From NCBI GenBank assembly GCA_964019415.1, contig OZ025869.1:12953430-13017429 (forward strand): DNA of 64,000 nt. Reading direction: 5' to 3'. The notes beneath the pieces are model-generated. The model had not been told where the DNA came from. It did no database searches and worked only from the letters and a program-made list of their open reading frames with translations. Both the position numbers and the translations under genes were made by a program. This stretch comes from Ianthella basta (lineage: Eukaryota > Porifera > Demospongiae > Verongiida > Ianthellidae). This document shows, piece after piece, positions 10,744 through 10,888 of the stretch (positions are counted from its first letter, which is position 1; each line of letters begins with the position of its first letter).

Positions 10744-10888
10744 CACACCAACCCACACACACACACACAAGCACACACACACACACACACACACACACAC
10801 ACACACACACACACACACGCACACAAGCACACACACACACACACACACACACACACACACACACACACACACACACACACACACACAC
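10744..10888. repeat. (CA)n microsatellite, unit C/E junction
   Basis: About 145 bp. Its left flank (CATGTCCTTGCACACCAACC) matches the C unit of block 3 and its right flank matches unit E, so the inferred exchange point lies inside this tract. Confidence 0.95.

Follow-up and report, generated by a model that had tools for sequence, protein, structure and literature searches.

A hybrid B-E unit junction inside a (CA)n tract of an Ianthella basta tandem array, probably formed by out-of-register exchange

The window, by which we mean the whole stretch of 64,000 nucleotides analysed (contig C2:12953430-13017429 of the sponge Ianthella basta), sits in a tandem array of about 20 units of 3.9 kb each, nearly all of which end in a (CA)n tract. 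We added 40 kb from each flank and kept the coordinates of the window, with zero and negative numbers lying to its left; the 144 kb examined contain no N. A search of the genome (209 Mb, 96 contigs) placed the long matches to the unit only on C2, at about 12.931-13.032 Mb, with at least some shorter or weaker matches elsewhere among the 40 of 286 candidates scored. Unit starts were set directly after the tract; those of the first-pass annotation lie about 820 bp further on, and its unit "C" corresponds to the end of B plus the start of C in the present naming. A young higher-order repeat of about 27.7 kb, insert-C-D-E-A-B, is superposed on the array: unit bodies within each of the types A-E are 0-10 substitutions apart, those of different types 41-82, and the distance to the right-hand units w1-w5 is at least 24. 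The unit-end tracts measure 135-285 bp in the 18 listed, the one at 10754-10888 being the shortest of these; the last tract (w6) has 126 bp and w4 has no tract.

From the left, unit u0 (start -19467) adjoins insert 0 (-15828 to -8609), which lacks one internal piece and has 7220 bp, versus 7992 in insert 1. Units C and D follow (starts -8500 and -4754), and then a first E-A-B trimer, u3, u4 and u5, which with its tracts takes up positions 1-10753 of the window: u3 (type E, -819 to 2885) begins left of the window, u4 (type A) starts at 3053, and u5 (type B, 7014-10753) differs by 0 substitutions from v5 (46405-50140) and by 1 from u8 (18731-22456); a stretch of 4 bp at about 8229 is unique to u5. 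Beyond the junction tract lies u6 (type E, 10889-14593), with 1 substitution relative to v3 (38578-42282) and 4 relative to u3, and a second E-A-B trimer is completed at 14759-22456 by u7 (type A, start 14759) and u8 (type B). Insert copy 1 (22673-30664, plus strand) is followed by the second block with its tracts (30665-50329), made up of v1 (C), v2 (D), v3 (E), v4 (A) and v5 (B), which start at 30751, 34639, 38578, 42446 and 46405. Insert copy 2 (50330-58349, plus strand) shows 5 mismatches and 28 gap bases relative to copy 1, and w1 starts at 58434, with further, more diverged units reaching to about 80 kb. In unit u7, odd changes cluster at 18300-18329 and are followed by an irregular tract (together 18300-18730); its two sister copies lack these features, which could be a local error or a real patch.

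The unit itself does not appear to be a gene. A minus-strand frame of 130 aa lies at 32761-33153 and at the same place in other units; among 24 match rows, every one on C2 in the array (all 25 candidates were scored), 15 contain it at full length and uninterrupted, and it is broken by stops in the D units and some others. The unit frames searched gave nothing above the Pfam cut-off and a single PDB match with an E value of 0.81. For the constraint count, 14 of the 20 units aligned gap-free, 5 were gapped and 1 had no match; the nine versions of the frame differ at 4 silent and 17 replacement sites, set against about 84 silent and 306 replacement positions. These counts show no sign of constraint, and no known family was found. 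At the thresholds used, no RNA families were found in the window, nor any tRNA genes (bacterial setting).

The 8 kb insert is identified from its sequence as a rearranged non-LTR retrotransposon. In copy 1 the first 225 bp (22673-22897) are the inverted 3' end, and the body occupies 22894-23664 and 28970-30664, with reverse-transcriptase (RT) and endonuclease-like pieces and other dispersed repeats in between. The turn between inverted end and body shows an overlap of 4 bp; 3' inversions of this kind are typical of twin priming. Two separate frames match RVT_1 above the cut-off (1.4e-10 and 2.7e-16), and a match to Exo_endo_phos reaches an E value of 0.00026, with 21.3 bits against a cut-off of 24.5. 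Insert 1 stops inside the RT, at the (CA)n tract, while in three other copies of the element compared the RT continues past the point where the array copy meets the tract. Scoring 40 of 89 candidates for the 3' end gave 40 matches, which were reduced to 30 loci, 27 of them outside the array; the 120 bp beyond the 3' end consist of a CA run to at least 30% in 18 of these 27, versus 6 of 249 background stretches from the outer flanks of the array. Of three copies inspected on the 5' side, one is bordered by long TG runs left and right, another by short runs only, and one is unreadable. It is likely that the element either prefers CA tracts or carries a CA-like tail. Waldo, Kibi and Koshi are non-LTR retrotransposons tied to microsatellites. 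So are elements of the RTE clade in Lepidoptera, which resemble the insert in having RT and endonuclease-like pieces and a 3' end that adjoins a simple repeat (PMC2887409); the insert differs in that its simple repeat is (CA)n/(TG)n.

The junction of interest lies at 10754-10888, where the end of a B unit of the kind that precedes the insert is joined, inside the CA tract, to the start of an E unit, so that two different unit types in the same orientation are linked. The other two B units (u8 and v5) both abut the 8 kb insert. On the left side, 9934-10753 shows no difference from 49321-50140, where B ends ahead of insert 2. Against the end of u8, the B before insert 1, it has 1 mismatch and 10 gap bases, and against that of u0 it has 2 mismatches; the ends of D, E, C and A are 8-12 mismatches and 20-22 gap bases away. 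On the right side, 10889-11708 matches E at 38578-39397 with 0 mismatches and 0 gaps in 820 positions and agrees fully with the start of each of the other two E units. Relative to the post-insert half-units at 30751-31569 and at 58434 it shows 9 mismatches and 1 gap base, relative to the third one (-8500) 9 mismatches and 153 gap bases, and relative to D, A and B 10-15 mismatches and 0-8 gap bases. In a multiple alignment, the columns that separate C from E are all of the E state in the hybrid, 11 of 11 in the first 820 bp and 76 of 76 over the whole unit. D and E have no substitution between them in the first 400 alignment columns, so the earliest part alone would fit D too; at the E-versus-D columns of the first 820, the hybrid agrees with E at 18 of 18. 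These comparisons bear out the core of what the first-pass annotation had described here: a (CA)n tract, to its left sequence that it called C-type, and to its right a half-unit that is E at every diagnostic site and not equally close to the post-insert half-unit. They also dispose of an excision of the insert alone, which would leave C on the right.

The tract allows the switch to be narrowed down, as its interruptions serve as markers. It reads [CA8]AG[CA23]CG[CA3]AG and then [CA30]C, and the interruption order [CA8]AG[CA23]CG[CA3]AG recurs in the three pre-insert tracts, those of u0 and v5 and, slightly altered, that of u8, with run lengths that vary a little; it is found in none of the 17 remaining tracts of the 21 listed. 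The part with pre-insert type interruptions, [CA8]AG[CA23]CG, covers 10754-10819. Tracts before E also have an AG ahead of their last run, so the AG at 10826-10827 could derive from either partner and the CG at 10818-10819 is the last mark exclusive to pre-insert tracts. Read from these marks, the switch from B to E is placed within 10820-10887 ([CA3]AG[CA30]), most likely in the pure (CA)30 at 10828-10887. The breakpoint thus falls in sequence common to both partners: the terminal pure runs are (CA)46, (CA)55 and (CA)65 in the pre-insert tracts and (CA)58 and (CA)60 in the other two tracts before E. The tract before insert 2 (50141-50329), which ends in (CA)55, is likely of the left-hand partner type, and the tract before E in the second block (38385-38577), which ends in (CA)60, likely of the right-hand one.

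Copy number in the array is altered by whole units. Inserts 0 and 1 are 31,281 bp apart, with eight units between them, C D E A B E A B, and inserts 1 and 2 are 19,665 bp apart, with five, C D E A B; the left block is longer by 11,616 bp, and the surplus is one E-A-B trimer. The first-pass annotation had taken the left block to be the shorter, an impression that vanishes once the left flank is added, as the window edge had cut this block and its right-hand part alone was compared with the whole second block. The figure of 15,981 bp that it gave is correct as a difference of offsets (27,689 - 11,708). A window read without its flanks can therefore make a possible gain look like a loss.

The B-E junction was probably made by out-of-register exchange in the CA tract, whether by loss or by gain. 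Two copies of the array (sister chromatids, homologues or one folded-back strand) would have aligned in a shifted position at (CA)n, and the tract of a B would have been joined to the tract of an E by an exchange or, with the same result, by repair through single-strand annealing or template switching. This agrees with the earlier proposal of unequal exchange as far as the hybrid is concerned, through pre-insert and pre-E tracts; that such an exchange accounts for a shorter block as well was too strong, the shorter block being an effect of the window edge. It is unlikely that the assembler instead joined B to E through the CA run. Such an error is made easier by the 99.6-99.7% likeness of array stretches of more than 10 kb, by unit bodies down to 0 substitutions apart and by CA runs of 60 bp, which are hard to assemble, and the odd changes of u7 could be residual errors. 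Against it, the 144 kb are free of N, the B-E join has a tract length of its own, and units only 0-4 substitutions apart are kept separate, with differing tract patterns, which suggests reads longer than a tract. The hybrid junction looks real, and the process is an ordinary one that is already known. Beside the three insert copies of this assembly we found no reciprocal D-insert join, a point against the exchange.

The history of B bears on the order of events. Of the 52 substitutions that separate B (v5) from u0, 48 fall within alignment columns 1-2207 and 4 beyond them (Fisher p 6.6e-9, with the cut chosen after looking). Over columns 3200-3909, B shows 1 mismatch of 589 relative to u0, versus at least 8 for other types, and over columns 2400-3200 no substitution relative to w3. 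The near-identity of the tails indicates that B is itself a mosaic with the tail of u0, and the breakpoint that made it is located in the unit body, not in the tract. Tails of the u0 type stand beside an insert in u0, in v5 and, except for the last few bases, in u8; without an insert they occur only in u5. As the tail of B is shared with u0 and otherwise found only on the insert side, the B-insert arrangement probably preceded B-E. The simplest order is therefore the insert beside u0, then B-insert, then B-E, although the shared tail may have had an older, insert-free source. Following this order, the retrotransposon would have ended up between u0 and C; u0 would have exchanged out of register with another unit, giving a B with the tail of u0 and the insert behind it; the higher-order repeat would have multiplied; and a tract exchange would have created B-E, either by removal of insert-C-D from a third copy or by addition of E-A-B.

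It is very improbable that B-E represents the old order, an array of E-A-B trimers into which the insert arrived later, together with C and D, by exchange. The insert-free B-E junction does resemble an empty site, and the trimer copies are of similar age; yet what comes after each of the three insert copies is of C type and not of E type, and the tail and tract of u5 are of the u0 type otherwise seen only beside the insert, so the B of this junction already carried insert-side sequence. The reverse direction mentioned in the first-pass annotation, a gain of the 16 kb segment by a B-E array, is less likely on the same grounds.

In the exchange reading, the outcome would depend on the partner: pairing of a B-insert tract with the upstream E tract adds a trimer, while pairing with a downstream E tract removes insert, C and D (15,981 bp). 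Given a real join, we put the loss of one insert-C-D segment from a third copy at slightly better than even. A gain, with the E tract of the same higher-order copy as partner and the E-A-B trimer (about 11.7 kb) duplicated in place with no loss, is plausible without being probable: it predicts the same junction, needs two full higher-order copies instead of three, and fits a left block 11,616 bp longer. The 16 kb loss proposed at first is therefore one of two near-equal choices. Outside the tracts, u3-u5 and v3-v5 are 3 substitutions apart, u6-u8 and v3-v5 are 5 apart, and u3-u5 and u6-u8 are 8 apart; the three distances give no clear pair, and the two trimers of the left block, which a gain would make sisters, are not closest relatives. 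The sole derived-looking state that groups two trimers is at column 1980, where u6 and v3 carry C, and u3 as well as all 16 other units in the count, which excludes w6, carry A. This shared site leans weakly towards loss, with few sites and weak support behind it: in the tree, u6 and v3 group at 83/79, under the usual thresholds, and u5 and v5 at 94/72. At columns 1622 and 2166 there is wide variation from one unit type to another, the very end of u8 departs from u5 and v5 and looks like that of other types, and the remaining trimer differences are private, so that gain and loss are nearly tied.

A more specific role of the element, as a hinge that enters the bordering CA tract, with a long pure run of CA remaining beside it, is decidedly unlikely in our estimation. 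If true, the CA homology would be kept or lengthened, the element and neighbouring units could later be expelled or multiplied through it, and insertion and formation of the higher-order repeat would be linked steps and not chance neighbours.

Exchange of this kind has well-known counterparts. In alpha-satellite arrays, unequal exchange likewise leaves hybrid units at the breakpoint, changes of whole units and higher-order copies more alike than neighbours; the array described here differs in its 3.9 kb units, its only two to three higher-order copies and a breakpoint inside a dinucleotide run. In RNU2 (U2 snRNA), a human macrosatellite, the unit contains a (CT)n tract, and we know of no higher-order repeat with a mobile-element insert there. 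The RNU2 tandem unit has 6.1 kb and changes in number, unequal sister chromatid exchange being the process favoured in the source (PMC4132748). Both arrays thus have a kilobase-long tandem unit of changing number, and they differ in that the sequence is another one. A literature search recognised nothing as this locus, a result of little weight because it was run without the species name. Hybrid junctions in arrays are expected from theory; here one is placed to about 70 bp, next to surviving copies of both partner types, and within the one assembly covered by the comparison it is a clear, well-resolved case of a known process. With long reads, the locus could serve to measure the rate at which array units are lost or gained at microsatellites.

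We also asked whether the tract acts as an exchange hot spot. Among ten unit types and 20 windows of 200 columns, no trend of diversity with distance from the tract was found (rho 0.13; 7 of 19 circular shifts were as high). Diversity between types does not drop towards the tract, which is therefore not shown to be where exchange usually takes place. Exchange at tracts is shown for the junction at 10754-10888 and suggested for the tract of u3, with no general rule. This tract (2886-3052, E to A) is a patchwork that combines the TA[CA3]TG block of A-to-B tracts with the right part of the other two E-to-A tracts.

Two further repeats were observed around the junction. The CA tract is flanked, here and at most other units, by the two copies of a direct repeat (10028-10295 and 10932-11199), which measure about 270 bp and agree at about 85%. 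Within the unit, about 200 bp at 10348-10550 resemble, at about 69-77%, repeats that lie some 150 bp from one another on several other contigs.
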